Source: Corynebacterium lactis
Lineage (GTDB): Bacteria; Actinomycetota; Actinomycetes; Mycobacteriales; Mycobacteriaceae
Direction of reading: 5' to 3'
NCBI RefSeq assembly: GCF_900519355.1
Contig: NZ_ULHE01000004.1
Span: 1 to 64,000, forward strand
Length of the DNA stretch: 64,000 bases
Below, piece after piece: positions 37,249 through 53,414 of the stretch. The notes under the pieces are model-generated. The model saw only the letters and a program-made list of their open reading frames with translations. It was not told the DNA's origin and ran no database searches. The first letter of the stretch is position 1. Each line of letters starts with the position of its first letter. The position numbers and the translations under genes were made by a program.

Positions 37249-38367
37249 CTAGTTGGCCAGCAGGTCCTCGATGCGGTGGCCCTCCTCCACCGGGTCCGGG
37301 TTCACGGCAGCCGGAGCGGTGCCGTTGCCGAACGGGGTGCCGCCCAGCTTCTCGCGGCCGTGCGGCTCGAGCAGGCCTGCGAAGTCCGGACCCTTCGGTA
37401 CGATGCCGAGCGGGTTAATGTCGCGGTGCACCTCGTAGTAGTGACGCTTGATGTCGACGAAGTCGGTGGTGTCGCCGAAGCCCGGGGTCTGGAAGAGATC
37501 GCGCAGGTAGTTGTAGAGAACCGGCATCTCGGAGATCTTGTTGCGGTTGCACTTGAAGTGGTTGTGGTAAACCGCATCGAAGCGAATCAGCGTCGTGTAG
37601 AGGCGGATGTCGGCCTCGGTGATGTGATCGCCGACCAGATAGCGACGGGTCTCCAGGCGCTCGGAAATCTTGTCGAGGGCGTTGAAGAGGCGGTCGTAGG
37701 CGGCCTCGTAAATCTCCTGCGAGCCCGCGAATCCGCAGCGGTAGACGCCGTTGTTGATCTCCGTGTAGATGTAGTGCATCAGCGGGTCCATCTCTTCGCG
37801 GAGTTCCTCCGGGTACAGGTCCGGGGCGCCCTCGCGGTGGAATTCCTTCCACTCGGTCTCGAAGTCGAGGGTAATCCACGGGAAGTCGTTGGTGACGACC
37901 TCCCCGGAGGCGATCTCGACAACGGCCGGGACCGTGATGCCGCGGGTGTAGTCCGGGAAGCGCTTCAGGTAGGCCTCCTGGAGGCGCTCGTAGCCGAGTA
38001 CCTCGTCGCGGCCGCCCGGCCCCTTGTCGAAGGTCCAGGAACGCGCGTCGTGCACCGGGCCCGGGATGCCGACGGAGATAACGTCCTCGAGCCCCAGCAG
38101 TCGACGAACGATAAGCGTGCGGTGCGCCCACGGACAGGCGCGCGCCGCTACCAGCCGGTATCGGCCCGGCTCGACCGGCCAGGTCTTAATCCCCTCTCCC
38201 ACCTCGCGGGCGTCCTTGGTGATGCGGTCGTTGATGTAGCGGGTATCGCGCTTGTACTCCTTGCCGGCCGTCGAGTAGACGCCGCCCTTGGAGTGAGCGG
38301 GGTCCTCGGCGGCCGCGGCGTCGGAGTTCGGGTTGACGGAGTCGTTGTGAGCCTTATTAGTTGTCAT
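37249..38367 (-). CDS. glutathionyl-hydroquinone-reductase-like GST (ECM4/YqjG family)
   Basis: A 372-residue Xi-class glutathione S-transferase-like protein. The catalytic cysteine is in AARACPWAHRTLIVRRLLGL (about residue 80), typical of Cys-type quinone reductases. The N-terminal YSTAGKEYKRDTRYINDRI and C-terminal helical domain (ITEADIRLYTTLIRFDAVYH) complete the fold. Because corynebacteria make mycothiol rather than glutathione, the physiological thiol is probably mycothiol (inference). ATG 38367 follows TAATGT by 7 nt with no Shine-Dalgarno. Confidence 0.88.
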   Translation of the reverse strand: MTTNKAHNDSVNPNSDAAAAEDPAHSKGGVYSTAGKEYKRDTRYINDRITKDAREVGEGIKTWPVEPGRYRLVAARACPWAHRTLIVRRLLGLEDVISVGIPGPVHDARSWTFDKGPGGRDEVLGYERLQEAYLKRFPDYTRGITVPAVVEIASGEVVTNDFPWITLDFETEWKEFHREGAPDLYPEELREEMDPLMHYIYTEINNGVYRCGFAGSQEIYEAAYDRLFNALDKISERLETRRYLVGDHITEADIRLYTTLIRFDAVYHNHFKCNRNKISEMPVLYNYLRDLFQTPGFGDTTDFVDIKRHYYEVHRDINPLGIVPKGPDFAGLLEPHGREKLGGTPFGNGTAPAAVNPDPVEEGHRIEDLLAN

Positions 38368-38487
38368 GTCAACCACATTAGGGTGCGGGCGAGCTCGAGT
38401 CAAACGGCCCACACATTACCCCCGGAGATCTTGATCAACATGAATGCCACTTCAGGGCCGATCTTCGGCGCAAAGCAGCAGAACGAC

Positions 38488-38557
38488 ACAAAAAATCCCC
38501 GGCGAGGGCGCGGATCCCGGAACTGTGATGTTCCAGGCCCACTCCCTCGCCGGGGAT
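38488..38557 (-). terminator. rpsA terminator
   Basis: A perfect 14-bp stem (ATCCCCGGCGAGGG at 38495-38508 and its complement at 38544-38557) has an inner GGAAC/GTTCC pairing. On the minus strand TTTTTTG follows. It starts 55 nt after the rpsA stop. Confidence 0.9.
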
Positions 38558-38612
38558 CTCTCAAAGGGCGCTATTTAGCTTTTAGCCATGTCGCTCTTAG
38601 CCTTACAGCGGC

Positions 38613-40079
38613 TTAGTTGCCGGCCAGCTTCTCGCGCAGAGCAGCGAGCTGCTCGTCGGAAGCCAGGGTGCCGCCAGCGTTTGCCTCTGCAGCCGGTGCG
38701 GACGGAGCGGCCGGGGTGGCCTCGCCGGACTCGGAGGAGTAGTTCGAAGCGGTCTCGGCAGCCTCTGCAGCAGCGGCGCGGTGACGCTCGATCTGAGCGG
38801 TGTGCAGCTGGTGGTGACGCTCCGCCTCTGCGTAGCGAGCCTCCCACTCTGCGCGCTGGGTCTCGAAGCCCTCCATCCACTCGTTGGTCTCCGGGTCGAA
38901 GCCCTCCGGGAAGATGTAGTTGCCCTGCTCGTCGTAGGAGTCACCCATGCCGTACTTGGTCGGGTCGAACTCTTCAGTGTAGTCCTCGTCAGCCTGCTTG
39001 AGGGACAGGGAGATACGACGACGCTCGAGGTCGATGTCGATGACCTTGACCATGACCTGCTCGTCGACGGAGACGATCTGGTCCGGAACATCGATGTGGC
39101 GGGAAGCCAGCTCGGAGATGTGAACCAGACCCTCGATGCCCTCCTCGACGCGGACGAACGCGCCGAACGGAACCAGCTTGGTGACCTTGCCCGGGACAAT
39201 CTGGCCGATTGCGTGGGTGCGGGCGAAGACGCGCCACGGATCCTCCTGGGTCGCCTTCAGCGACAGGGAAACGCGCTCGCGGTTCAGGTCGACCTCGAGA
39301 ACCTCGACGGTGACCTCGTCGCCAACCTGGACAACCTCGGACGGGTGGTCGATGTGCTTCCAGGACAGCTCGGAAACGTGAACCAGGCCGTCAACACCGC
39401 CGAGATCGACGAATGCGCCGAAGTTGACGATGGAGGAAACGACGCCCTTGCGGACCTGGCCCTTCTGCAGCTGGTGCAGGAACTCGGAGCGGACCTCAGA
39501 CTGGGTCTGCTCGAGCCATGCACGGCGGGACAGAACGACGTTGTTGCGGTTCTTGTCGAGCTCGATGATCTTGGCCTCGATCTCCTGGCCGATGTACGGC
39601 TGCAGATCGCGGACGCGACGCATCTCGACGAGGGAAGCCGGCAGGAAGCCACGCAGGCCGATGTCGAGGATCAGGCCGCCCTTGACGACCTCGATGACGG
39701 TACCGGTAACCGGCTCGTCGTTCTCCTTGAGCTGCTCGATGGTGCCCCAGGCACGCTCGTACTGAGCGCGCTTCTTGGACAGAATGAGGCGGCCTTCCTT
39801 GTCTTCCTTGGTCAGGACCAGCGCGTCGATCTCATCGCCAACTTCGACCACTTCATCAGGGTCGACATCGTGCTTGATGGACAGTTCGCGGGAAGGGATG
39901 ACACCTTCAGTCTTGTAGCCGATGTCGAGAAGAACCTCGTCGCGGTCAACCTTGACGACGGTGCCCTCAACGATGTCACCATCGTTGAAGTACTTCATCG
40001 TGGAGTCGACGGCGGCCAGGAAATCCTCAGCGGTGCCGATGTCGTTGATGGCAACCTGAGGGACGTTAGAGGTGGACAT
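38613..40079 (-). CDS. rpsA: 30S ribosomal protein S1
   Basis: A 488-residue protein with four S1 OB-fold repeats (about residues 35-105, 120-190, 205-275, 290-360). The third and fourth carry VNFGAFVDLGGVDGLVHVSELSWKH- and VPFGAFVRVEEGIEGLVHISELA-type cores. The C-terminal ~110 residues are acidic then Ala/Pro/Ser-rich, as in other actinobacterial S1 proteins. ATG 40079 is preceded by GGAG at 10 nt; an upstream in-frame start would run into the leader. It is encoded downstream of polA. Confidence 0.96.
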   Translation of the reverse strand: MSTSNVPQVAINDIGTAEDFLAAVDSTMKYFNDGDIVEGTVVKVDRDEVLLDIGYKTEGVIPSRELSIKHDVDPDEVVEVGDEIDALVLTKEDKEGRLILSKKRAQYERAWGTIEQLKENDEPVTGTVIEVVKGGLILDIGLRGFLPASLVEMRRVRDLQPYIGQEIEAKIIELDKNRNNVVLSRRAWLEQTQSEVRSEFLHQLQKGQVRKGVVSSIVNFGAFVDLGGVDGLVHVSELSWKHIDHPSEVVQVGDEVTVEVLEVDLNRERVSLSLKATQEDPWRVFARTHAIGQIVPGKVTKLVPFGAFVRVEEGIEGLVHISELASRHIDVPDQIVSVDEQVMVKVIDIDLERRRISLSLKQADEDYTEEFDPTKYGMGDSYDEQGNYIFPEGFDPETNEWMEGFETQRAEWEARYAEAERHHQLHTAQIERHRAAAAEAAETASNYSSESGEATPAAPSAPAAEANAGGTLASDEQLAALREKLAGN

Positions 40080-40412
40080 ATAAGATGTGCTCCGAAGCGG
40101 ATAGTAAATCGAAAAACGGACAATTTCGGCCTTGCCCCCAATGCAAAGCTCCACGTCATTCGGGCTACATCCGCTCCCGGCGGGAACGCCATTGGATCTT
40201 AGTTAACCCGAACTTTACGCAAAGCCGTAGGCAGCAAAGTCGGCATGCTAGTGCATACCGCGAGAACAATACCCGCTTGAGCTGCAAGATTCAAGTTCCG
40301 CCCGGCCCCCGCGCGTCGTCTCGCCGCCGGAACATCAGACAACCTGACCTGCCACGACGGCCCCGCCTCGCACGAATTGCGAATGACCGCCACGCCCGCG
40401 CCTAGTACAAGC
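40080..40412 (-). other. polA-rpsA intergenic region (rpsA leader)
   Basis: A 333-nt stretch without a credible gene. On the minus strand a TACTAT box (about 40106-40111) may be the rpsA promoter -10. GC-rich segments further upstream could fold, but I see no classical terminator after polA and no recognisable regulatory RNA. Confidence 0.4.
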
Positions 40413-43087
40413 CTAATGCGCCGCCGCATCCCAATTCACTCCGGCACCAACAGACACATCCAGCGGCACCAAAAGTTCGGTTGCAGCGTCCATTTCCCTC
40501 TGCAGCACGTCCTGCATCGTCTCCTCCTCCCCCGGAGCAACCTCGACAACAAGTTCGTCATGAACCTGCAGAAGCACCCGGGAGCTCAGGCCCTCGCGGC
40601 GAATCGCGTCGTCCACGCGCAGCATCGCAATCTTAATAATGTCGGCCGCCGTACCCTGGATCGGCGAATTCAGTGCAGCACGCTCCGCATTGTCCCTCGC
40701 CATACGGTTATCCGCGTTGAGGTCCGGCAGGTACCGGCGGCGATCGAACAGCGTTGCCGTGAAACCGTCCTTGCGGGCCTGCTCCACCACCTCGCGCAGG
40801 TAGTCGCGCACGCCACCGAAGCGCTCGAAGTAGTCCTCCATCAGAGCCTTCGCCTCGCGCTGCGGAATATCCAGCTGCTGCGCCAGACCAAATGCGCTCA
40901 GGCCGTACGCCAGGCCGTAGCTCATCGCCTTCACACGGCGGCGCAGCTCTGGCGTCACCTCATCAATACCAACGCCGAAGACTTTGGACCCCACGTAATT
41001 GTGCAGATCCTCGCCATTGCGGTACGCCTCAATCAGCCCCGGGTCCTGCGACAGGTGCGCCATCACTCGCATCTCAATCTGCGAGTAGTCCGCCGTCAGC
41101 AGCTGCGAGTACCCCTCGCCCACCACGAACGCCTCGCGAATCCGGTGCCCGAACTCGTGCGCACCGGAATGTTCTGCAGGTTCGGCTCGGTCGACGACAA
41201 ACGCCCCGTCGCCGCTACCGTCTGGTTAAAGGTCGTGTGAATCCGGCCGTCGTCAGCCACTGCTTTAATAAGGCCCTCGACCGTCGACTTCATCTTCTGC
41301 GACTCGCGGAAGGCAAGCAGCTTCTCCAGGAAGGGGTGCGGGTTGACCTTAGCGAGCCCCTCAATCTCCTTCGCAGCCGTGGAGTAGCCGGTCTTAGTCT
41401 TCTTCGTCTTCGGCATGCCCAACTGGTCGAAGAGGACCTCCTGAAGCTGCTTCGGCGACCCCAGATTCAGCTCCGGCTTGCCGACGATATCCCTCGCAAC
41501 GGCCTCGGCCTCATCCGTGGCGGCCTGCGCCTGCTTGCGAAGGTCCTCGAGACGATCGACGTCCACGGCTATTCCGGCGCGCTCCATGCGAGCCAGCACT
41601 GGCGCCAGCGGAACCTCCAGGTCGGCGTAGACGCTGTAGAGCCCCGCCTGGTCGAGTTCCGCCGCCATCGAAGCAGCGAGATCGATGATTGCCGCGACGC
41701 GGGAGGCATCCGCCGTAGGCTCGTCCAGCAGGGTTAGCTGGCCGTCGACCTGCGACAGAGTCCGGTTCAGGTGGCGCTGGGTGACGTTGTCCAGCGAGTA
41801 GCTGCGCTGGCTCGGGCGTAGCAGATAGGCGGCAAGGAAGGTGTCGTGAATGACGCCGCCAAGATCCAGGTCATACGTCCACAGCGCATGCATCGCCGAC
41901 TTACAGTCGTGCAGCAGCTTCGGGTGCTCGCCCGCGAGCCACTCGCGCAGCGCCTCCTCGTCCGCCGGCGACAGCGAATCGAGGTCGACAACCACGGCCT
42001 GGCCCGGGGCCCCGGAAGCTCCCGAGGCACCCTTACCAGAAGCAGCGGCATCATCCGCAGAGCCGATAGAGACGGTATGCTCCCCGACCTCCACGGCTGC
42101 CGGTGCCTGAAGCTTGTGAAGCCAAGAGCCGAGGGAACCGTCGGCAAGCGTGACAACCTCCAGCTCGGTGGCGGACTCGCCGGAGGAGGCGGTGACTCCG
42201 GCACCCTCGATGGAGAGGGTGCGGAAGACGCGCTCGCGGAGACTGTCGCCGAATTCGAGGCGGTCGAAGAAGTCCATGATGCCCTGCGCGTCGGCGGGGC
42301 GGAGCTCCAGCTCATCTGGACCATAGGGCAAGGGCAGGTCCTTGACCATCTCGGTGATGTCGCGGTTTAGCTGAACTGCGGCGACGCGCTCGCGGAAGTT
42401 ATCGCCGGCCTTGCCACGGATCTCGTCGGCGTGCTCGATGAGGGACTTCAGGCTGCCGTACTGGACAATCCACTTGGTGGCGGTCTTCTCGCCGACGCCC
42501 GGAATGCCGGGCAAGTTATCGGAGGGGTCACCGCGAAGCGCCGCGAAGTCCGGGTACTGAGCCGGGGTGAGGCCGTACTTCTTCTCGACGGCCTCCGGCG
42601 TGAAGCGATGCAGCGTGGTGACACCGCGCATGGGATAGAGCACGGTCGTGGTGTCGTTGACCAGCTGGAAGGAGTCGCGGTCGCCGGTGACGATGAGAGT
42701 CTCGAACCCCTCGGGCTTGGCCTGCGTGGCCAGGGTCGCGATAATGTCGTCGGCCTCGTAGTTATCTTTCTCCAGTGTGACGATGCCCATTTCTTTGAGC
42801 ACCTGCTGGATGAGCGGGACCTGGCCTCGGAATTCCTCGGGTGTCTTTTCGCGCTGGGCCTTATATTCCGGGAACATTTCGTTGCGGAAGGTCTCGCGCG
42901 CAACATCGAAGGCGACCGCGACATGCGTAGGCTTCTCCTCGCTGAGGATGTTGGAAAGCATCGACAGGAAGCCATAGACGGCATTGGTGGACTGCCCCGA
43001 GGTGGTCGAGAAGTTGTCCGTCGGCAGCGCAAAGAATGCACGGAACGCCATGGAGTGGCCGTCGATAAGCATGAGGGTCTTCTTCAT
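40413..43087 (-). pseudogene. polA: DNA polymerase I, interrupted by one 1-nt deletion
   Basis: Residues 1-310 form the 5'-3' exonuclease domain (LLIDGHSMAFRAFFAL, VVTGDRDSFQLV, GVGEKTATKWI). A degenerate 3'-5' exonuclease-like domain follows (about 330-500) without clear catalytic acidic motifs, as usual in actinobacteria. The polymerase domain has LSSTEPNLQNIPVRTSSG (motif before A), LLTADYSQIEMRVMAHLS (motif A), the O-helix RRRVKAMSYGLAYGL and the VHDELVVEV of motif C. The frame breaks at about 41148-41151; adding one base restores RTSSGHRIREAFVVGEGY and an 891-residue protein of normal size. ATG 43087 follows TAGACT by 8 nt. Confidence 0.95.
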
Positions 43088-43300
43088 GACTCCCCAGTCT
43101 AGGAAAAGTCCGGGAGTTCCGGATGAAAAGGGCGCCGGGGGCGAGGCCACAGGGCGAGAGAAGGGGCACGCGGAGGGAAGTTGACGCGAGCATGTTTTAC
43201 AGCGCCGACCAGGGAAAAGTTTCCTGAAACTATTTCGACAAGCGAGGCGCCATATAGTAGACCTTCTACTACCCGCCCAGACGCTGGGGAAACGGACACC

Positions 43301-44255: not shown

Positions 44256-45221
44256 ATGTCTACTGAAAATACGGGCGTGACCGGCCACGAGCCGCACACG
44301 AACCCATACTCCGAAATCCCTAAGCCAACCCCAGTTGGGGTCGTCGCCAACGCTATTCGCGGTGGCCTCATCGGGCTGGCCGAGACGATCCCGGGCGTAT
44401 CAGGTGGCACCGTCGCCCTCATCACCGGCGTCTACGGGCGCCTGATTGAGTCCGCGAAAAATATCACCGACCTGCCCCGCGCCGCCTCTAAGGGCACCTT
44501 CTCCGCCGGACTCCGCCGCATCGACTGGTGGCTCCTGATCCCTGCGGCCGTCGGCATGCTGGCGGTGGTGTTCACGATGGCCGGTATCATGGAGAGCTTC
44601 GTCTCCGGCCAGCCAGTCGCCTCGCGCGCGCTGTTCATGGGCATGATCGCCGTGTCCGTGATTATTCCGTTCCAGGAGCTGCAGCCGGGCGCATTGGATA
44701 AGCCGGGCATGAAGGGCAAGGCCGCGATTGTGCTGGTGCTCTTCGCGATCGGCCTTTTCGTGCTCACTTCCCTGCCCCAGGCCGAACCGACGCAGCCGCC
44801 GCTGTGGCTGGTGCTGATTGCCGCGTCGATTGCCATCTGTGCCCTAGTGCTGCCCGGCGTTTCGGGGTCCTTCTTCCTGCTAGTCATTGGCCTCTACGCG
44901 CCGACGATGTCCGCGGTCCACAACCGCGACTTCGCCTACATGGGCACCTTTGCTCTCGGCGCTCTAATCGGCATCGTGCTGTTCGTGCGCGTGCTCGAGT
45001 GGCTTCTCGACCACCACCACACCCTCACCCTGGTCGCCATGTCCGGCCTGATGCTGGGTTCGCTGCGCGCCCTGTGGCCGTGGCAGTCCGAGACCAACGA
45101 GCTCCAGAGCGTCGGCTCCGACTGGCCGCTGGCGCTGGGGCTGTTCGTGTTGGGTGGCGCCATCGTTGCGATTGTCGCCTACGCGCAGCACCATTTTTCT
45201 AAAAAGGAGTCCATCGACTAG
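44256..45221 (+). CDS. DUF368 membrane protein (PopT-like polyprenyl-phosphate transporter)
   Basis: A 321-residue membrane protein with about 9 hydrophobic segments. It carries two copies of the family hallmark PGVSG: AETIPGVSGGTVALITGVYG (about residues 46-65) and CALVLPGVSGSFFLLVIGLY (about 196-215). DUF368 proteins (PopT) have recently been shown to recycle undecaprenyl phosphate across the membrane for envelope synthesis; in corynebacteria the carrier would be decaprenyl phosphate (inference). It lies just upstream of the tRNA gene. Confidence 0.87.
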   Translation: MSTENTGVTGHEPHTNPYSEIPKPTPVGVVANAIRGGLIGLAETIPGVSGGTVALITGVYGRLIESAKNITDLPRAASKGTFSAGLRRIDWWLLIPAAVGMLAVVFTMAGIMESFVSGQPVASRALFMGMIAVSVIIPFQELQPGALDKPGMKGKAAIVLVLFAIGLFVLTSLPQAEPTQPPLWLVLIAASIAICALVLPGVSGSFFLLVIGLYAPTMSAVHNRDFAYMGTFALGALIGIVLFVRVLEWLLDHHHTLTLVAMSGLMLGSLRALWPWQSETNELQSVGSDWPLALGLFVLGGAIVAIVAYAQHHFSKKESID

Positions 45222-45301
45222 ACTCTTGTAGGTCGCTTCGGAGCGGTATTTCGCGCAAGGCTCGACCTCGCGCGGTGTTTCGCTTTACGACGGTGACTTG
45301 C

Positions 45302-45375
45302 GCCCCTGTAGCCCAATTGGCAGAGGCAACGGATTCAAAACCCGTCCAGTGTGAGTTCGAGTCTCACCGGGGGCA
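45302..45375 (+). tRNA. tRNA with CAA (Leu) anticodon and short variable arm
   Basis: A 74-nt cloverleaf. Acceptor stem 45302-45308/45368-45374 (7 pairs, one T-G) with discriminator A. D arm with GG at 45319-45320. Anticodon stem ACGGA/CCCGT with one A-C mismatch next to the loop. Loop TTCAAAA puts CAA at 45336-45338. The variable region is CCAGT (5 nt), and the T arm is GTGAG/CTCAC with TTCGAGT. CCA is not encoded. CAA reads the leucine codon TTG, but leucine tRNAs are normally class II with a long variable arm. A terminator follows directly. Confidence 0.9.
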
Positions 45376-45387
45376 CAAATTGTAAGG

Positions 45388-45429
45388 CCGCCCTCACCTT
45401 GGTTTTTACCGAGGTGGGGGCGGTTTTTG
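45388..45429 (+). terminator. tRNA terminator
   Basis: The 15-nt arms CCGCCCTCACCTTGG and CCGAGGTGGGGGCGG are followed by TTTTTG. It starts 12 nt after the tRNA 3' end. The following 45430-45687 shows no gene or repeat I can support. Confidence 0.9.
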
Positions 45430-45687
45430 AAGTTTTAACGCAGCCCTCAACAACACATTAGCGTCCCGGAATTCTTAGTTTTATCGCCGCAGCCTGGCAT
45501 TTTCTGCATTGACATCTTTTTCAGCGGGGGTAACGACTCCGTCATGGCGCGATTGTTGAACCCAACTGGCGAGCGGTGCGCCAAGTTTTTCCCGTCTCCC
45601 CAGACAGAACGAAACCTGAGTTACTTCAGTAACGCCATGGCGGGGACTCACACTCCGCCAGGTGGCTTCTACATGGCTAGAAGGGCT

Positions 45688-46002
45688 CTACGCTTCCAAA
45701 TCATCCTGATTCCATTGCTCCACCAGTACTGGCCCGATGGCTAAATAGTCGGTATCGTCGGTAGCCTCTAGCTCCGCTTGGCGTTTCTTCTCCGCCTCCC
45801 ACGCAGCGTGAACCTCTTCGCGGCTCTGAATCACATTCCCGTCGCGATCAATGACCTCGTAGTCGCCACCTGCCAGGCCAGGAAATGCACTACTGGCTAC
45901 GTTCTCCCCGGTTTGTTCGTCGATGAGCACGACGCCTACGTATCCTGCGAGATCACTACCTACCCCACCTCTGAACACCATCCATAAGGTCGCAATCGTC
46001 AA
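45688..46002 (-). CDS. hypothetical small membrane-anchored protein
   Basis: A 104-residue ORF. The N-terminal LTIATLWMVF (hydrophobic, with QLFL just before the chosen TTG start) could be a membrane anchor. An acidic soluble part follows (VVLIDEQTGENVASSAFPGL, YEVIDRDGNVIQSREEV) with a charged Glu/Lys helix. No family recognised. Its start overlaps the end of the upstream ORF in another frame, so the true 5' end is uncertain and a frameshift between the two is possible. Confidence 0.5.
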   Translation of the reverse strand: MTIATLWMVFRGGVGSDLAGYVGVVLIDEQTGENVASSAFPGLAGGDYEVIDRDGNVIQSREEVHAAWEAEKKRQAELEATDDTDYLAIGPVLVEQWNQDDLEA

Positions 46003-46195
46003 TAGGAACAGCTGCTAAGGACCTTGGCTTGATTCCTGACAAAACACCACCAATGCTCAACACCGCTAGAGCGCTCGACTCACCTCTATCAGAAATAAAG
46101 GCGCCGGGCCTAGCTATGTCATCGAACCCTCTATGACAAAGCACCGAAATGCTTACGGAATCTGCACGATTTGGTTTACGCAGCTCCTTGCCCAT
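45956..46195 (-). CDS. hypothetical protein, doubtful
   Basis: A 79-residue ORF in the accessory patch (ATG or similar start at 46195). The middle has ALAVLSIGGVLSGIKPRSLAAV, a possible hydrophobic segment. It overlaps the next ORF by 47 bp in a different frame. It may be the remnant of a larger gene with the following ORF. No family recognised. Confidence 0.3.
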   Translation of the reverse strand: MGKELRKPNRADSVSISVLCHRGFDDIARPGAFISDRGESSALAVLSIGGVLSGIKPRSLAAVPIDDCDLMDGVQRWGR

Positions 46196-46331
46196 ACCGT
46201 CAGTAATACGGTCAGGGATAAAACCATCGTCTGGGTTCGAATTCGCGTATGCCTCTAGACCAAAGGTGATTCAGAGCGGTTTAGGTACGACCGGCTGTAC
46301 TAGGGCAGGTGCTGGCGTGATCGCTCAATGG

Positions 46332-47794
46332 TTACCTGTCCGATAACACAGGTGAGTTTGTATCCTCTCCCTCCACTCCATCACTTCCTTGCTGTTCCCC
46401 AAAAGAAATCGGCGTCCATCCCGAAAACTCCACGTCGTTTAGCGTTCGTGCAACTGCCTCAATCTCCTCCCTATGTTTCGACCTATCCAGCTCCGGCGGG
46501 GTCGGGATTGCGAGGTTCGGCACCGGGTCTTCCCGCTCTATCACTGCCTGACACCAGGCCAGGTAGTCGGGGTCCACTTGACCTACTCCCTCCAACTCCG
46601 AGACGAACCCCACCAACCGCTGATAGCGAGCAAACTCCTCTGCATGACGGCTAAGCTCGCCCAGCTCAAAACGCTCGGTCACACGTTTACCCACGATTAA
46701 AGCCGCTCGATCAACCCGACGTTGATACGACTGGCGGTACAGTTCATCCAGGTCAGAGCGGGCCCGAGAGAAAAAGGTACCAATTCGCTGCTGAGTGAAG
46801 TACCCCTCCAGTACGTCATCCAAGCGCGTGGGCGAGCGTTTTGTGTCATTGAGTTTGCTGTAACCGATTTCCAAGCTCAGCCGCCCGTTGGGGACGCGAT
46901 TGTAGAGCTTCTTCATTGGTTCGTCTTTGGTCCACGAGTAGCGGTTGTGATCGGCAATCTCCTTCTTGGTGGGCTCACGCTCGAATTTGTCGTACTGCTC
47001 AATGATCTTGACTTCATGGCAATTTAGGCGTACTTCTCCCCTGGGGTTGGGTTGCCAGCTCCTCGGCGACTCCGCCTTGTGCTCGACTGTCCAGCCCTCA
47101 CGCTCGGCTTCGACGAACAGAACGTGGAGCAACCGTTTCGCTCGCGATGCCACGTCTTTGGACACGCGGAAGTTTTTGCCCTTTTCAAAGTACGACAGCA
47201 TTGGGTGGTATTTGCCGATTTTGCGGGTACCTGCCAGGATGGCCTGCGACGTTTCGGTGAAATGTACTTCCTCTATAATGCCCGCCATCAGATGTGGCGG
47301 CCATTTCGACAAATACGATGAATCAGTCCAGGTGTAGACCAACCGCTTGGTCGGATCTTTCTGCGCGAGGGCGCGTTCAGCAGCTTTCAGGCGGAGCTCC
47401 CACTCCGATTCGTACGTGTCTTTACTGCACTTGATACGAAAGTACCCGCTCGGTGCGTTGGTAATCGCATCGAGCAGCGTGACAGTTTCTGCGTCGGTGG
47501 GCGCCACTCGCGGACGGTAAGGGATAACTGGCCCTGCGGGCCGAACAATAGTTGCCGGAGCCTCCTTCTTCCGGGATTTACGAAGGGGCTCGGTACCGGC
47601 CATCACGCGCTTGCCTCTGGCTGTGATGGTTGCTTTCCAGGTGTCTCCGTGGCCCTTGATTCTGACCAGCTCGTGCGATTCGAGGGCACGGGCCGAGATC
47701 TTATAGTTCCCTGGAGGAGTAGTCGCTCGGGACAGCCCGAGGCGACCCAGGCGAGGACAGTCTGTTGTAGGTCATTGAGAACTCGTGCGACCAT
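46332..47794 (-). pseudogene. uncharacterised actinobacterial protein with N-terminal winged helix, interrupted by one 1-nt deletion
   Basis: The first 33 residues (MVARVLNDLQQTVLAWVASGCPE) are in one frame and the remaining ~454 in another. Adding one base near 47725-47727 joins them as SGCPEATTPPGNYKISARAL, giving an intact winged-helix domain (residues about 5-75, ending DTWKATITARGKRVMAG) and a 487-residue protein. After a basic linker (RKSRKKEAP) the rest (about 95-440) has no motif I recognise: a charged, mostly helical protein with a GRLSLEIGYSKLND segment. Similar proteins are, from memory, scattered in actinobacterial accessory DNA. ATG 47794 follows GATAAT by 6 nt. Function unknown. 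Confidence 0.65.
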
Positions 47795-48022
47795 GAACCC
47801 ATTATCTGCCGAAACTTGCTGCTTTTCCACGAGTCAGTACACGGGGTTGACTACATTTCGCTGCCACAGTAGGTATGGTTCTTCGCGCAACTGAATCTTT
47901 GTGCATCGGAAGACGAAAGTGAGTGCAGAGCACGATTTAGAACCGGAGCGAGACTCCATTTCAAGAAAGGTCGAAGTCACGTTCCGCCAGATTAGAGCTA
48001 AACATATTCATCACGCCTGTGG

Positions 48023-48280
48023 CTACCCGTGCATTTCTAACAATGCTGCATACGCGTCATAGAGTTCCTTGTCTCCATGCGCGTATTCACGCACCCCTTC
48101 AAGCAGAGCACCTTTATGCACCGCTGAAATCACAATCCCTAGATCATGAATATCTTCTATTAGATAAGTGGCGGCGTCAGCAATCTCCCCGCATTTAAGC
48201 CTCGATACAGCTCCTGAATCGGCCAAAGCAGGCACTGTAAGTAATTCTAAAATTGCTTCCTCAGTCGTCACAACGACCAC
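48023..48280 (-). CDS. small acidic protein, paralogue of the upstream gene (immunity-like)
   Basis: An 85-residue protein. Its C-terminal half (YLIEDIHDLGIVISAVHKGA, LLEGVREY, YDAYAALLE) aligns clearly with the product of 48433-48675. Size, acidity and the pattern ...L.E.I....ISA.....LLE...Y recall small immunity proteins of polymorphic toxin systems (MafI-type), but this is a weak resemblance and no toxin is visible. Start is GTG 48280, with further GTG codons just downstream. Confidence 0.55.
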   Translation of the reverse strand: MVVVTTEEAILELLTVPALADSGAVSRLKCGEIADAATYLIEDIHDLGIVISAVHKGALLEGVREYAHGDKELYDAYAALLEMHG

Positions 48281-48432
48281 GCCCTAAACCGAGTTCCAGC
48301 ATCTCACTATCCGAGGATACATAGGTGGCAGCACAAGCGACGCTACGTAATTTAAAATGAGAAACCTTTTGGGAGGAAGTGAGCCCCACGGGCGAAGAAT
48401 CCACCAAGCTATCTCAGTAAAAATCCACCAAT

Positions 48433-48675
48433 CTACCTCAGTAAATCAGCGTAAGCATCGTAGACGTCCTGATCCCTCATCCCATACTCCTGTAGGTACT
48501 CAAGAAGCGCTTCCTTTTCGGAGGCTGAGATCGAGGCTTTTTGATTGTGGATTTCCTCGATCAACTCACTGGCAGCAATCCCATACTCTGCACAATCAAA
48601 GAGACTTCGAGCATTGGTGCCGGAATAACGTGGATCATTTGCCAACTTCTCCAACTCGATCAAATGGTCGGCCAT
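48433..48675 (-). CDS. small acidic protein, tandem paralogue (immunity-like)
   Basis: An 80-residue protein with MADHLIELEKLANDPRYSGT at the N-terminus and the shared core ELIEEIHNQKASISASEKEA, LLEYLQEYG, YDAYADLL. It is homologous to the product of 48023-48280, 152 nt downstream. A GAGGAG lies about 12 nt before the ATG. No upstream toxin gene is present: the next gene upstream is the divergent malic enzyme. Function unknown; immunity or antitoxin role is a guess from size and tandem duplication. Confidence 0.6.
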   Translation of the reverse strand: MADHLIELEKLANDPRYSGTNARSLFDCAEYGIAASELIEEIHNQKASISASEKEALLEYLQEYGMRDQDVYDAYADLLR

Positions 48676-48812
48676 GGTCCTGCCTCACTCCTCTCCAGCA
48701 TTCATGCCTCAGGCCTTTCCCGCAGTGCATGTCTACAGCGTTCAGTCCCCCACCCGCCAACGACAGCCGTTCGCCACGCACCCCACACCAAGGAAATACA
48801 GAAGCAAACGCC

Positions 48813-48882
48813 ACCTGATGGCACGGGATCATGGTTATGGCTAGCCATAGCGCACCATAACCATGATCCCTTGCCGTTAAGT
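48813..48882. repeat. 70-bp palindromic element, copy A
   Basis: A palindrome with a perfect 16-bp inner inverted repeat (GGGATCATGGTTATGG at 48825-48840, its complement at 48855-48870) and imperfect 11-bp ends (ACCTGATGGCA / TGCCGTTAAGT). It is the same length and layout as copy B at 53345-53414. It lies in the 488-nt gap between the small paralogue gene and malic enzyme; the rest of that gap shows only a possible promoter for the latter. Confidence 0.8.
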
Positions 48883-49163
48883 GAGTCCCCCGTCTTTCCA
48901 CAAAGCCCGACGCGCCCCGCGGATCGCTCCGCAACAACCACACGCCCCACCCTTTTCACTGTTACCTCCATCTCTTTTTCGCCATAGAATTTCAATCCAG
49001 CACACCCCACACCATAAAATGAGACAGGTATCCCATATTTCAGGAATTGCCTAGTCACCCGCCTAGTGCATACCCCCTTCCCGACTATGCGCACTGCACA
49101 CCCGCAGCGAACATTACAGTCGCGTTTCCCGACTATCTCTAGCTCTCCCCTGGACTGGTAACA

Positions 49164-50595: not shown

Positions 50596-51489
50596 ATGAA
50601 AAGACCCATCGCATTGGCGGCCGCCGCGCTGACTGCGACTTTGACTCTGGGGTTGGCAGGCTGCGTCACCAATGACGAAAGTGGCAACCCCCAGGGCTGG
50701 TCGGAGATCAAGCCGGCGATCGTCCCGGAGCTGGCCGCGCAGGTGCCAGCGGAAATCCGAGATCGCGCAACCCTGCGAATTGGTACGAACCCAACGTTCG
50801 CGCCGGCGGAGTTCAAGGACTCTCAGGGCAACATCATCGGCATCGACATTGACCTGGCCCGCGCCATGGCGAGCGTCCTTGGACTGGACCTCAACATCCA
50901 GGAGCAGGACTTCTCCCTGATCCTGCCGTCCCTGTCCGCGGGTGCTGTCGACGTCGGCGTTTCCGGCTTCACCTCCAACGAGGAGCGCCGCAAGACCTAC
51001 GACTTCGTCGACTACCTGGACACCGGCCTGCAGTGGGCACGCCGCCCCGGCAGCGACGCCAGCTCCGATAACTACTGTGGCAAGACCGTCGCCGTGCAGC
51101 GCAACACAGTCGCCGACACCGACGACCTTCCGGTGAAGAACCAGGACTGCCTCGACCGGGGGCTGCCCCCGATCAACAAGCTGGCCTACCAGGACGCGGG
51201 CACCGCGGCGACCACCGTCGTGCTCGGCCGCGCGGACGCGCTGGCAGCGGACTCCCCCGTCAGTGCCTACGCGGTCAGCCGCTCCGAGGGAAAGCTGGAG
51301 CTCGCGGGCACCATCTATGACAGCGCCCCCTTCGGCATGACCGTTCCGAAGGACTCGGAACTCGGCCCGGTGCTGGTCAAGGCCCTGCAGTACCTGATTG
51401 ATAACGGCCAATACCAGGAGATTCTGAAAACCTGGGGCCTCGAGGACGGTGCCCTGAAAAGCGCCACACTGAATGGAGAGGAACTTTAA
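50596..51489 (+). CDS. polar amino acid ABC transporter substrate-binding lipoprotein
   Basis: A 297-residue family 3 solute-binding protein. The lipobox LGLAGC puts the lipidated Cys at about residue 23. The binding fold follows: RIGTNPTFAPAEFKDSQGNI, GIDIDLARAMASVLGLDLNI and the DVGVSGFTSNEERRKTYDFV motif. It delivers a polar amino acid (Gln, Glu, Arg or similar) to the permease encoded directly downstream with no gap. TATCAT lies 8 nt before the ATG. Substrate not determinable here. Confidence 0.93.
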   Translation: MKRPIALAAAALTATLTLGLAGCVTNDESGNPQGWSEIKPAIVPELAAQVPAEIRDRATLRIGTNPTFAPAEFKDSQGNIIGIDIDLARAMASVLGLDLNIQEQDFSLILPSLSAGAVDVGVSGFTSNEERRKTYDFVDYLDTGLQWARRPGSDASSDNYCGKTVAVQRNTVADTDDLPVKNQDCLDRGLPPINKLAYQDAGTAATTVVLGRADALAADSPVSAYAVSRSEGKLELAGTIYDSAPFGMTVPKDSELGPVLVKALQYLIDNGQYQEILKTWGLEDGALKSATLNGEEL

Positions 51490-52470
51490 GTGAGCGACTC
51501 ATCTGTGTCGGGCGGCCGCTACGAGGCAAGCCAGGCAGAACTCAACGAAGAAATTAAGGCCAAGCCGCTGCCGCGCCCGGGCCGCTGGATCACCGCCGCA
51601 ATCCTGCTGGCGCTGTTCGTGTGGTTCGTCATCGGCGCCGCGCGCAACGAGGCCTACCACTGGGACGTCTACGCCCAGTACCTCCTGGATACCCGCATCG
51701 CCGCTGCGGCCGGGTGGACCATGGCGTTGACGGTGCTCGCGATGCTCATCGGCATCGTGGGTGGCGCCATCATCGCTGTGCTGCGTATGTCGGACAACCC
51801 GGTACTGTCCACCGTTTCGTGGTTCTACCTGTGGGTATTCCGCGGTACCCCGGTCTACGTCCAGCTCGTCTTCTGGGGCCTGCTGGGCACCATCTACTCC
51901 TCCATCAACGTCGGTTTCACCGAGATTGACCTCAGCGAAACCCTGTCCAACACCTTCGTCCTGGCGTTCGTCGGCCTCGGCCTGAACGAGGCCGCCTACA
52001 TGGCCGAGATCGTCCGCGCCGGCATCCAGGCCGTCCCAGAGGGCCAGACCGAGGCCTCGAAGGCTCTCGGCATGAGCTGGTGGCAGACCGTCCGCCGCAC
52101 CATCATGCCGCAGGCCATGCGCATCATCATCCCGCCGACCGGCAACGAGTTCATCTCGCTGCTGAAGACCACCTCGCTGGTCATCGCCGTGCCGTTCTCC
52201 CTGGAGCTCTACGGACGCTCCACCGACATCGCAAACGCGCTCTTCCTGCCGGTGCCGATGCTTCTCGTCGCCGCCACCTGGTACCTGGTCATCACCTCCA
52301 TCCTGATGGTCGGCCAGTTCTACCTCGAGCGCTACTTCGCCCGCGGTGCCACCCGCCAACTCACCGCCCGCCAGCTGGCCGCGCTTGCCGACGCCGAGGG
52401 CATCCCCCTGGCCAACGCCCGCGTCGTCGACAAAGAAGAAGAGCGCTTCTACCGAGAGGATCCGCAGTAA
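51490..52470 (+). CDS. amino acid ABC transporter permease
   Basis: A 326-residue inner-membrane permease. A hydrophilic N-terminus and one extra helix (WITAAILLALFVWFVIGAA) precede the five-helix HisMQ-type core. It has the VFRGTPVYVQL motif and the ATPase-coupling EAA loop (EGQTEASKALGMSWWQTVRR). GTG start directly after the preceding stop. The one permease probably forms a homodimer with the ATPase encoded next. Confidence 0.94.
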   Translation: MSDSSVSGGRYEASQAELNEEIKAKPLPRPGRWITAAILLALFVWFVIGAARNEAYHWDVYAQYLLDTRIAAAAGWTMALTVLAMLIGIVGGAIIAVLRMSDNPVLSTVSWFYLWVFRGTPVYVQLVFWGLLGTIYSSINVGFTEIDLSETLSNTFVLAFVGLGLNEAAYMAEIVRAGIQAVPEGQTEASKALGMSWWQTVRRTIMPQAMRIIIPPTGNEFISLLKTTSLVIAVPFSLELYGRSTDIANALFLPVPMLLVAATWYLVITSILMVGQFYLERYFARGATRQLTARQLAALADAEGIPLANARVVDKEEERFYREDPQ

Positions 52471-53244
52471 ATGACTACCAACGATTTGATGGTTGAGGCC
52501 CAGAAGGTTCGCAAGAGCTTCGGCCGCCTCGAGGTCCTCAAGGGCATCGACCTAGAGGTTCCGCGCGGAACCGTGACCTGCCTGATCGGCCCGTCGGGCT
52601 CCGGCAAGTCCACCCTGCTGCGCTGCATCAACCACCTGGAAAAGGTCAACGCCGGCCGCCTCTACGTCGACGGCGAGCTGATCGGCTACCGCGAGAAGAA
52701 CGGCACCCTCTACGAGATCTCCGAGGCCGAGGCAGCCCGCCAGCGCCGCGACATCGGCATGGTCTTCCAGAGCTTCAACCTCTTCCCGCACCGCACCGTG
52801 CTGGGCAACATCACCGAGGCCCCGGTTCACGTCAAGGGCGTGCCGCTGAAGGAAGCCCAGGACCGCGCAATGCAGCTCCTGGAGACCGTGGGACTCGCCC
52901 ACAAGGCCGACGCCTACCCGGTCCAGCTCTCCGGTGGTCAGCAGCAGCGCGTCGCCATCGCCCGCGCGCTCGCCATGGATCCGAAGCTGATGCTTTTCGA
53001 CGAGCCCACCTCCGCCCTCGACCCGGAGCTGGTCGGCGAGGTCCTCGGCGTCATGCGGGGTCTGGCCGATAACGGCATGACGATGATTGTCGTCACCCAC
53101 GAGATGGGCTTTGCCCGCGAGGTCGCCGACCAGGTCGTGTTCATGGCCGACGGTGTCGTCGTCGAGCAGGGCACGCCGGACGAGGTTCTCGGCAACCCGC
53201 AGCACCAGCGCACCAAGGACTTCCTGTCCTCGCTGCTGAAGTAG
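52471..53244 (+). CDS. amino acid ABC transporter ATP-binding protein
   Basis: A 257-residue ABC ATPase of the GlnQ/HisP type. It has Walker [17 protein letters not shown]-loop [11 protein letters not shown], signature [15 protein letters not shown], Walker [15 protein letters not shown] and H-loop VTHEMGFA. It starts immediately after the permease stop. A strong terminator follows, closing the three-gene operon. Confidence 0.96.
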
Positions 53245-53310: not shown

Positions 53311-53344
53311 GCTATGCCTCCGCCACCGTTTCCCGCCACTGGTC

Positions 53345-53414
53345 ACCTGATGGCACGCGATCATGGTTATGGTGCGCTATAGCGTGCCACAACCATGACA
53401 CCCTGCCATCAGGT
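53345..53414. repeat. 70-bp palindromic element, copy B
   Basis: Perfect 11-bp terminal inverted repeats (ACCTGATGGCA at 53345-53355, TGCCATCAGGT at 53404-53414) surround an inner TCATGGTTATGG / CCACAACCATGA pairing. Length and layout equal copy A at 48813-48882, with most arm sequence shared. It lies between the convergent ABC operon and the MFS gene. Confidence 0.82.

Follow-up and report, generated by a model that had tools for sequence, protein, structure and literature searches.

Can a tRNA that carries a leucine anticodon on a short-armed body serve as the leucine tRNA of a bacterium, and which amino acid does it then bring to UUG codons? The question is raised by a single gene in the 64-kb stretch of a Corynebacterium genome that was analysed here as a whole (the window; contig C9, positions 1-64000). 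A long variable arm is described, in the relevant section of a 2023 review, as present in all tRNA-Leu except those of animal mitochondria (PMC9976931), yet the gene in the window, with its anticodon CAA, lacks this arm. The annotation of the window that preceded this work (the first-pass annotation) left a choice between an unusual leucine tRNA and one that reads TTG but receives its amino acid from a different synthetase. As judged from its sequence and that of its relatives, the gene in all likelihood encodes a working tRNA-Leu(CAA), the only one of its genome, which would be leucylated by the ordinary bacterial leucyl-tRNA synthetase (LeuRS) and would read UUG as leucine. The gene itself is ordinary for its genus; what stands out is the pattern in which short and long forms of this tRNA are exchanged one for one.

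Anatomy of the gene and its surroundings

ARAGORN reports a tRNA-Leu(caa) at 45302-45376, and the Rfam model RF00005 matches 45302-45375 with 53 bits (gathering score 29), which is the sole Rfam match above the gathering threshold in the window; by both methods the window holds a single tRNA gene (Table 1). The CAA anticodon and the 5-nt variable region, both noted in the first-pass annotation, are borne out by ARAGORN, Rfam and the parse of the arms, and the A-C mismatch described earlier in the anticodon arm is located by the parse at A31 (45333) and C39 (45341), where it weakens the anticodon stem. The acceptor stem comprises 7 bp (gcccctg/cgggggc) and the T arm has a 5-bp stem (gtgag-ttcgagt-ctcac); the gene lacks a 3' CCA, A73 being followed by CAAA. 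With 5 nt, compared to 13, 16 and 18 nt in the class II tRNA-Leu of the same genome, the variable region is that of a class I tRNA (4-5 nt) and not that of a class II tRNA (an arm of at least 10 nt). Class I tRNAs usually have a 4-bp D stem. The present tRNA departs from this form, since its D stem has three pairs with C13-A22 unpaired, as in tRNA-Leu, and the “complete cloverleaf” claimed for it has to be qualified accordingly: the arms can all be parsed, but the D stem is short. The D arm carries A14 (45315), A15 (45316), G18G19, A20a and G21, and its architecture is that of the three class II tRNA-Leu of the genome. The minimum-energy fold computed for the unmodified transcript differs from the cloverleaf. 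A pattern for class I UUR-leucine tRNAs matched once in the window and in none of 100 shuffles.

Table 1. Positions of the tRNA gene, its parts and neighbouring features in the window.
Feature	Position	Strand	Basis and remarks
tRNA-Leu(CAA) gene, class I shape	45302..45375	+	ARAGORN, Rfam, parse; 5-nt variable region
D arm gcccaattggcagaggc	45311..45327	+	parse; leucine-type, 3-bp stem, C13-A22 mismatch
Anticodon arm acgga-ttcaaaa-cccgt	45329..45345	+	ARAGORN, parse; anticodon CAA 45336-45338
Variable region ccagt, 5 nt	45346..45350	+	parse; U48 (45350) pairs with A15
Discriminator A73	45375..45375	+	parse
Intrinsic terminator	45388..45428	+	16-bp G+C-rich hairpin 45388-45423, then TTTTT 45424-45428
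polA	40413..43150	-	two overlapping frames; upstream neighbour marking the tRNA-Leu(CAA) slot
PF04018 family protein (Pfam: undecaprenyl phosphate translocase-like)	44256..45221	+	often found next to the tRNA within the genus
ABC transporter: binding protein, permease, ATPase	50596..53244	+	putative, named from reading translations

The strong terminator that had been seen 3' of the tRNA is real. In the computed fold, which has an energy of -37 kcal/mol (z -7.0), its hairpin is lengthened to 20 bp (45384-45427) by pairing of AAGG with four of the five T. A simple terminator scanner did not pick up the hairpin at 45388-45423 when run over 45000-45700, and no sigma-70-like promoter was found by a scanner within the same interval.

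Several features of the surrounding DNA are recorded here as side observations. The two polA frames (40413-41126 and 41096-43150, both on the minus strand) overlap as if frameshifted near 41096-41126; either an error of sequencing or a genuine break may lie behind this. On the 3' side of the tRNA, from about 45500 to 49000, the GC content is 0.51-0.56 per 1-kb window, compared to 0.57-0.67 around it, and the four frames in this part are without Pfam matches; the segment resembles a small island adjoining the tRNA on its 3' side. A second copy of the tRNA 3' end, as an attachment repeat, was not found within the window. A near-palindromic repeat of 71 nt occurs in two copies that are 80% identical (48812-48882 and 53344-53414).

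Leucine identity and the meaning of UUG

The genome has a size of 2.57 Mb in 13 contigs and a completeness of 99.94%. Throughout this sequence, RF00005 yields 51 matches, and ARAGORN yields 48 distinct strings, a few of which differ in the tail alone. Five leucine tRNAs are among them, namely CAG (85 nt), GAG (87 nt) and TAG (83 nt) of class II, and CAA and TAA (75 nt each) of class I (ARAGORN lengths, with tail bases counted), which places the CUN anticodons on long-arm and the UUR anticodons (CAA, UAA) on short-arm tRNAs. The gene for the TAA tRNA (contig C8, positions 105184-105257) is 86% identical to the window gene. A pattern for class II UUR tRNAs has no match in the genome. All 51 tRNA matches were typed and a second CAA tRNA is not among them; the window gene is therefore the sole CAA tRNA found. 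The possibility that it is a divergent, additional copy accompanying a class II tRNA-Leu(CAA) was not borne out, as the genome contains no class II CAA gene that could be found and the short tRNA stands in its place. A sequencing error in the loop was also considered and rejected, since the 74 nt recur at 91-100% identity in 34 of 37 genomes (its own and others of the genus).

Which parts of the molecule a LeuRS depends on has been worked out in E. coli: leucylation requires A73, the A15-U48 pair, G18G19 and A20a, while sequence and folding of the variable arm are uncorrelated with leucylation, and truncated, arm-less tRNAs are still active; A14 is named together with A73 for mitochondrial tRNA-Leu, “as for E. 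coli” (all in the parts of PMC9976931 that treat tRNA-Leu recognition). By the parse, the window tRNA has this full set, i.e., A73, A14, A15-U48, G18G19 and A20a. Within the genome, the set is complete in both class I tRNA-Leu and in all three class II tRNA-Leu, and in none of 38 class I non-leucine sequences. Among the matches listed in scans of GTDB and viral contigs, 83 of 92 and 88 of 110 distinct class I tRNA-Leu(CAA), respectively, possess the full set, compared to 0/125 and 2/962 of the non-leucine class I tRNAs found at these loci; in these counts A20a, G21 and A22 are circular for the retrieved leucine tRNAs because the retrieval pattern fixed GGYAGA, whereas A14, A15-U48, C13 and A73 are not. 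These independent positions are conserved in the 92 GTDB sequences among the matches listed (A14 in 90, A73 in 91, A15-U48 in 84, with G-C in place of A-U at 15-48 in another five).

The same 92 relatives bear on the integrity of the tRNA. Their acceptor, anticodon and T stems covary as pairs, and neither decayed stems nor another gene taking over the function, as would mark a pseudogene or an attachment remnant, were found for the window tRNA. The A31-C39 mismatch recurs in 28 of the 92 (among the matches listed), 26 of which share the loop TTCAAAA, and it is thus an inherited feature of a lineage. In this loop, U32 could pair with A38; the mismatch together with TTCAAAA may possibly represent a tuning of the anticodon loop.

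One full bacterial LeuRS is encoded in the genome (contig C6, positions 38085-40925), with 892.8 bits summed over pieces against a cut-off of 548.4, and the remaining matches of this search reach at most 72 bits. Among the leucine codons of 11 frames in the window, TTG accounts for 23 of 422 and TTA for none. In the 684-aa piece of polA, the UUG codons at residues 213, 274, 577 and 651 all correspond to leucine in the DNA polymerase I of PDB entry 6vde and in Taq polymerase (4/4; the second piece has one further UUG codon). A weak test is provided by the PF04018 gene, whose two TTG codons align with leucine in 3/8 and 7/8 sequences (the window's own included), and in whose relatives 23 of 37 TTG codons and 110 of 160 CTG codons face a leucine of the protein encoded in the window (its own locus counted in both). 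UUG thus means leucine in this genome on four of four tested codons of one polA piece, the PF04018 comparison being the weaker part.

Because the identity set is complete, a single LeuRS is available and the four polA UUG codons lie at conserved leucines, the ordinary LeuRS very probably attaches leucine to this tRNA. The proposed mechanism is that bacterial LeuRS would recognize A73 and a core made up of the D loop and tertiary contacts (A14, A15-U48, G18G19, A20a) but not the arm, so that the window tRNA could dispense with the latter; as long as the core is retained, a class I-shaped tRNA might substitute for a class II one, provided that the LeuRS of this species is as indifferent to the arm as that of E. 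coli and that the ribosome accepts the product. Of the two options in the first-pass annotation, the unusual leucine tRNA is hence the one supported, also by its being the sole CAA tRNA, and charging by another synthetase is not, given a complete leucine set that the 38 non-leucine class I sequences lack.

Short and long forms in Corynebacterium and in the Actinomycetota

Within Corynebacterium, the class I pattern occurs in 120 of 121 genomes, and 112 of these 121 have at least two class I UUR matches, for which reason the short CAA tRNA appears as the rule in the genus and the window gene as an ordinary member of it. Among the matches listed, the pairs consist of one CAA and one UAA tRNA, and a few genomes have a third match. 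In two genomes, two class I tRNA-Leu(CAA) copies lie about 2 kb apart (G021, contig C27, 135781 and 137774; G317, contig C1, 1238577 and 1240510), which might be what integration at the gene could leave. The class II pattern, in turn, is found in 12 of the 121 genomes, six of which have a tRNA-like class II CAA gene as judged by sequence; ARAGORN calls all six loci tRNA-Leu(CAA), with lengths of 84-87 nt. All six belong to the nine genomes with fewer than two class I matches, and in each of them the single class I match is the UAA tRNA. For the three remaining genomes of this group, completeness is 91, 77 and 53%. The possibility that the same short tRNA is the sole and well-known tRNA-Leu(CAA) of all relatives had been raised beforehand: it stands insofar as the short form is the genus rule; as regards being well known, the open-licence literature searched yielded no paper presenting it as an exception to the long-arm rule for tRNA-Leu.

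The two forms also share a location. A comparison of the six class II loci, the window and eight hand-picked class I loci (from the 112 genomes with at least two matches) places polA upstream and on the opposite strand in all 15, at a distance of 48-846 nt in 14 and of 2.2 kb in the window, and ABC transporter genes downstream of the tRNA in 13. Since these genes flank long and short forms alike, both occupy one chromosomal slot. Ten further loci were hand-picked outside the genus but within its order; in the stretches examined, eight of them show polA upstream in the opposite orientation, at about 2.7-9.4 kb, and two of these eight have the class II form.

Searching 246 genomes of Actinomycetota by pattern gives a corresponding picture. 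Class I UUR matches are present in 57, of which 47 have a UAA tRNA, 16 a CAA tRNA and 6 both according to a reading of the matched sequences. The class II patterns were found in 123 genomes for UAA and in 165 for CAA, as counted from tables in which matches were not each checked as tRNAs and a few of the printed ones are due to chance. For UAA, a class II match is present in 0 of the 47 class I genomes and in 123 of the 199 others (Fisher 6e-17, kinship ignored); for CAA, in 0 of 16 and in 165 of 230 (Fisher 8e-9, kinship ignored, computed with 164 of the 165 as one genome, G274, was left out). Between different anticodons this bias is absent: of the 47 genomes with class I UAA, 30 also match class II CAA (p 0.61), and of the 16 with class I CAA, 7 also match class II UAA (p 0.80). 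Both forms occur inside single families, four in the case of UAA (f23, f30, f32, f61) and four in the case of CAA (f1, f18, f30, f43). Neither pattern matched in 76 genomes for UAA and in 65 for CAA, and divergent tRNAs will have been missed because the class I pattern fixes GGYAGA and the class II pattern AGAC. The distributions suggest that, in the Actinomycetota, the short form of each UUR-leucine tRNA and its long counterpart substitute for one another, the direction of the switches being presumptive, and that in Corynebacterium such swaps take place within one chromosomal slot.

Mobile copies, origin and known systems

The family to which the window tRNA belongs extends beyond the genus. 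A pattern scan of GTDB retrieved at least 117 stretches, 80 of them named and mainly from Actinomycetota, with Mycobacterium, Corynebacterium, Rhodococcus, Streptomyces, Bifidobacterium, Micromonospora and other genera among the matches listed, and a scan of viral sequences retrieved at least 120 stretches; both scans indicate breadth, not frequency. Six named GTDB records among the matches listed bear titles of other phyla, and four of these six have a tRNA-Leu(caa) of class I length according to ARAGORN. In a phage collection, 326 records match the tRNA at 1e-5, some of them through the 3' part alone. Among those parsed, the leucine core is present in short tRNA-Leu from E. coli phages (UAG), Erwinia phages (CAA) and Vibrio phages (UAA, with a 6-nt variable region); other phage tRNA-Leu parsed less cleanly. 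Phage Koguma has three neighbouring short tRNA-Leu annotated as CAG, GAG and CAA, of which the CAA tRNA is without the leucine core, and as CAG and GAG are among them, the short form in phages is not restricted to UUR. Phages whose hosts use class II tRNA-Leu would presumably need the host LeuRS to charge such short tRNAs.

Two records connect the gene with integrases. In phage Thibault (L396, positions 1501-1550), a 50-nt copy of the 3' part of the tRNA, including the anticodon loop, is 92% identical and has a tyrosine integrase gene at a distance of about 90 nt; the copy is probably an attP site, with the window-type tRNA as attB. A Tsukamurella plasmid record (plasmid 5; L399, positions 1501-1574) carries a tRNA-Leu(CAA) with 98.6% identity that adjoins a site-specific integrase gene.

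How the short form came to occupy its slot can be explained in two ways. That a resident class II tRNA-Leu lost its arm in place is a tentative reading with slightly less than even prospects. It is favoured by the class I and class II genes found in the same slot, by one class II CAA gene in particular (L402) whose acceptor stem is identical, base for base, to that of the window gene, and by G47-U48 before the T stem, which are kept as in the class II tRNA-Leu of the genome. The D arms, however, differ, with C12-C13 in 92 of 92 class I relatives (among the matches listed) and A9 in the window tRNA compared to G12-G13 and G9 in class II, and arm loss would for this reason take more than one deletion. 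Moreover, class II tRNA-Leu (32.2) does not stand apart from tRNA-Arg (32.8) and tRNA-Thr (31.2) when similarity is averaged over all arms, in a sample of 138 class I Leu, 27 class II Leu and 38 of the genome's own class I non-leucine sequences.

The other way, overwriting of the resident gene by a class I copy from a phage or integrative element through recombination at the tRNA, is somewhat more doubtful, and all-arm similarity does not separate it from arm loss in place. Short tRNA-Leu in many phage records (UAA, CAA, UAG, CAG and GAG among those parsed), the attP-like copy of the 3' half in phage Thibault and the nearly identical, integrase-adjoining copy in Tsukamurella would fit such a route; phages may, however, have acquired the gene from their hosts, and a tree built on 74 nt would probably lack resolution. 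Taken further, the arm of tRNA-Leu might be a switchable part in bacteria generally, with many swaps between armed and armless UUR tRNAs that occur by anticodon, in the same slot and through phages and integrative elements, and with armless forms being kept by escaping enzymes that grip the arm, such as toxins, phage-defence nucleases or competing synthetases. We regard this extended scenario as unlikely.

Alternatives that concern the function of the gene fare far worse. If a synthetase other than LeuRS charged the tRNA, UUG would stand for another amino acid or be ambiguous, an idea prompted by the departure in shape from bacterial tRNA-Leu and by a D arm whose identity is higher to Lys (0.90) and Ala or Asn (0.85) than to the class II Leu(TAG) tRNA (0.75); it is made very improbable by the leucine identity set, by the polA codons and by the one-for-one exchange with a class II tRNA-Leu(CAA) in the same slot. 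Equally improbable is an inert remnant or integration-site copy whose codon is read by another tRNA: the phage copy of its 3' part beside a tyrosine integrase and the low-GC DNA downstream would suit it, but the nearly complete genome offers no other CAA tRNA, the gene has its own terminator and stems that covary in relatives, and, although the UAA tRNA could wobble to UUG, 112 of the 121 genomes of the genus retain at least two class I UUR matches.

With a working tRNA-Leu(CAA) as the preferred reading, an arm-less tRNA-Leu is the sole UUG reader of a genome and, by pattern, usual in its genus as sampled, and members of the same family are found in numerous Actinomycetota and in phages. That bacterial LeuRS can do without the arm, as reported for truncated E. 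coli tRNAs, thereby gains a natural counterpart with many replicate swaps, and natural pairs of armed and armless forms allow asking for the purpose of the arm. Annotation rules and models of toxin targets that use the long arm as the mark of tRNA-Leu may misjudge such genes.

Related observations are scattered in the literature. Sections of published work state that type I tRNAs took over functions of Leu, Ser and Tyr tRNAs, with Actinobacteria unnamed in that account (PMC2474678), and ascribe a long variable loop “especially” to tRNA-Leu-2, -3 and -5 (PMC11541572). A search of open-licence literature yielded no description of the actinomycetotal class I UUR tRNA-Leu in its own right, which is weak evidence of absence. 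In a list for M. tuberculosis, Leu_CAA and Leu_TAA are given with 74 bp and, within that list, without comment on the absent arm (PMC9336784); with the same length and anticodons they probably belong to the same family as the window tRNA, set beside it by description. The short variable loop of a tRNA-Leu(TAG) has been remarked on, in the portion concerned with a mycobacterial tRNA cluster (PMC6582537), and this tRNA is likewise short-armed and actinobacterial, but as described there it is an extra CUN isoacceptor next to a normal long-arm one, whereas the window CAA tRNA is the sole reader of its codon. A CAA tRNA derived from tRNA-Met shares the anticodon and the lack of a long arm; it differs as a recent derivative that scores far higher with a Met model than with a Leu model. 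Animal mitochondrial tRNA-Leu(UUR) also lacks the long arm and is leucylated via A73 and A14, but it is organellar and charged by a mitochondrial LeuRS, according to the same section of the review cited above (PMC9976931). Compared to the class II tRNA-Leu of its own genome, finally, the window tRNA is without the long arm and has C12-C13 for G12-G13 and A9 for G9, while A73, A14, A15-U48, G18G19, A20a, G21, the 3-bp D stem, the 13-22 mismatch and G47-U48 are the same.
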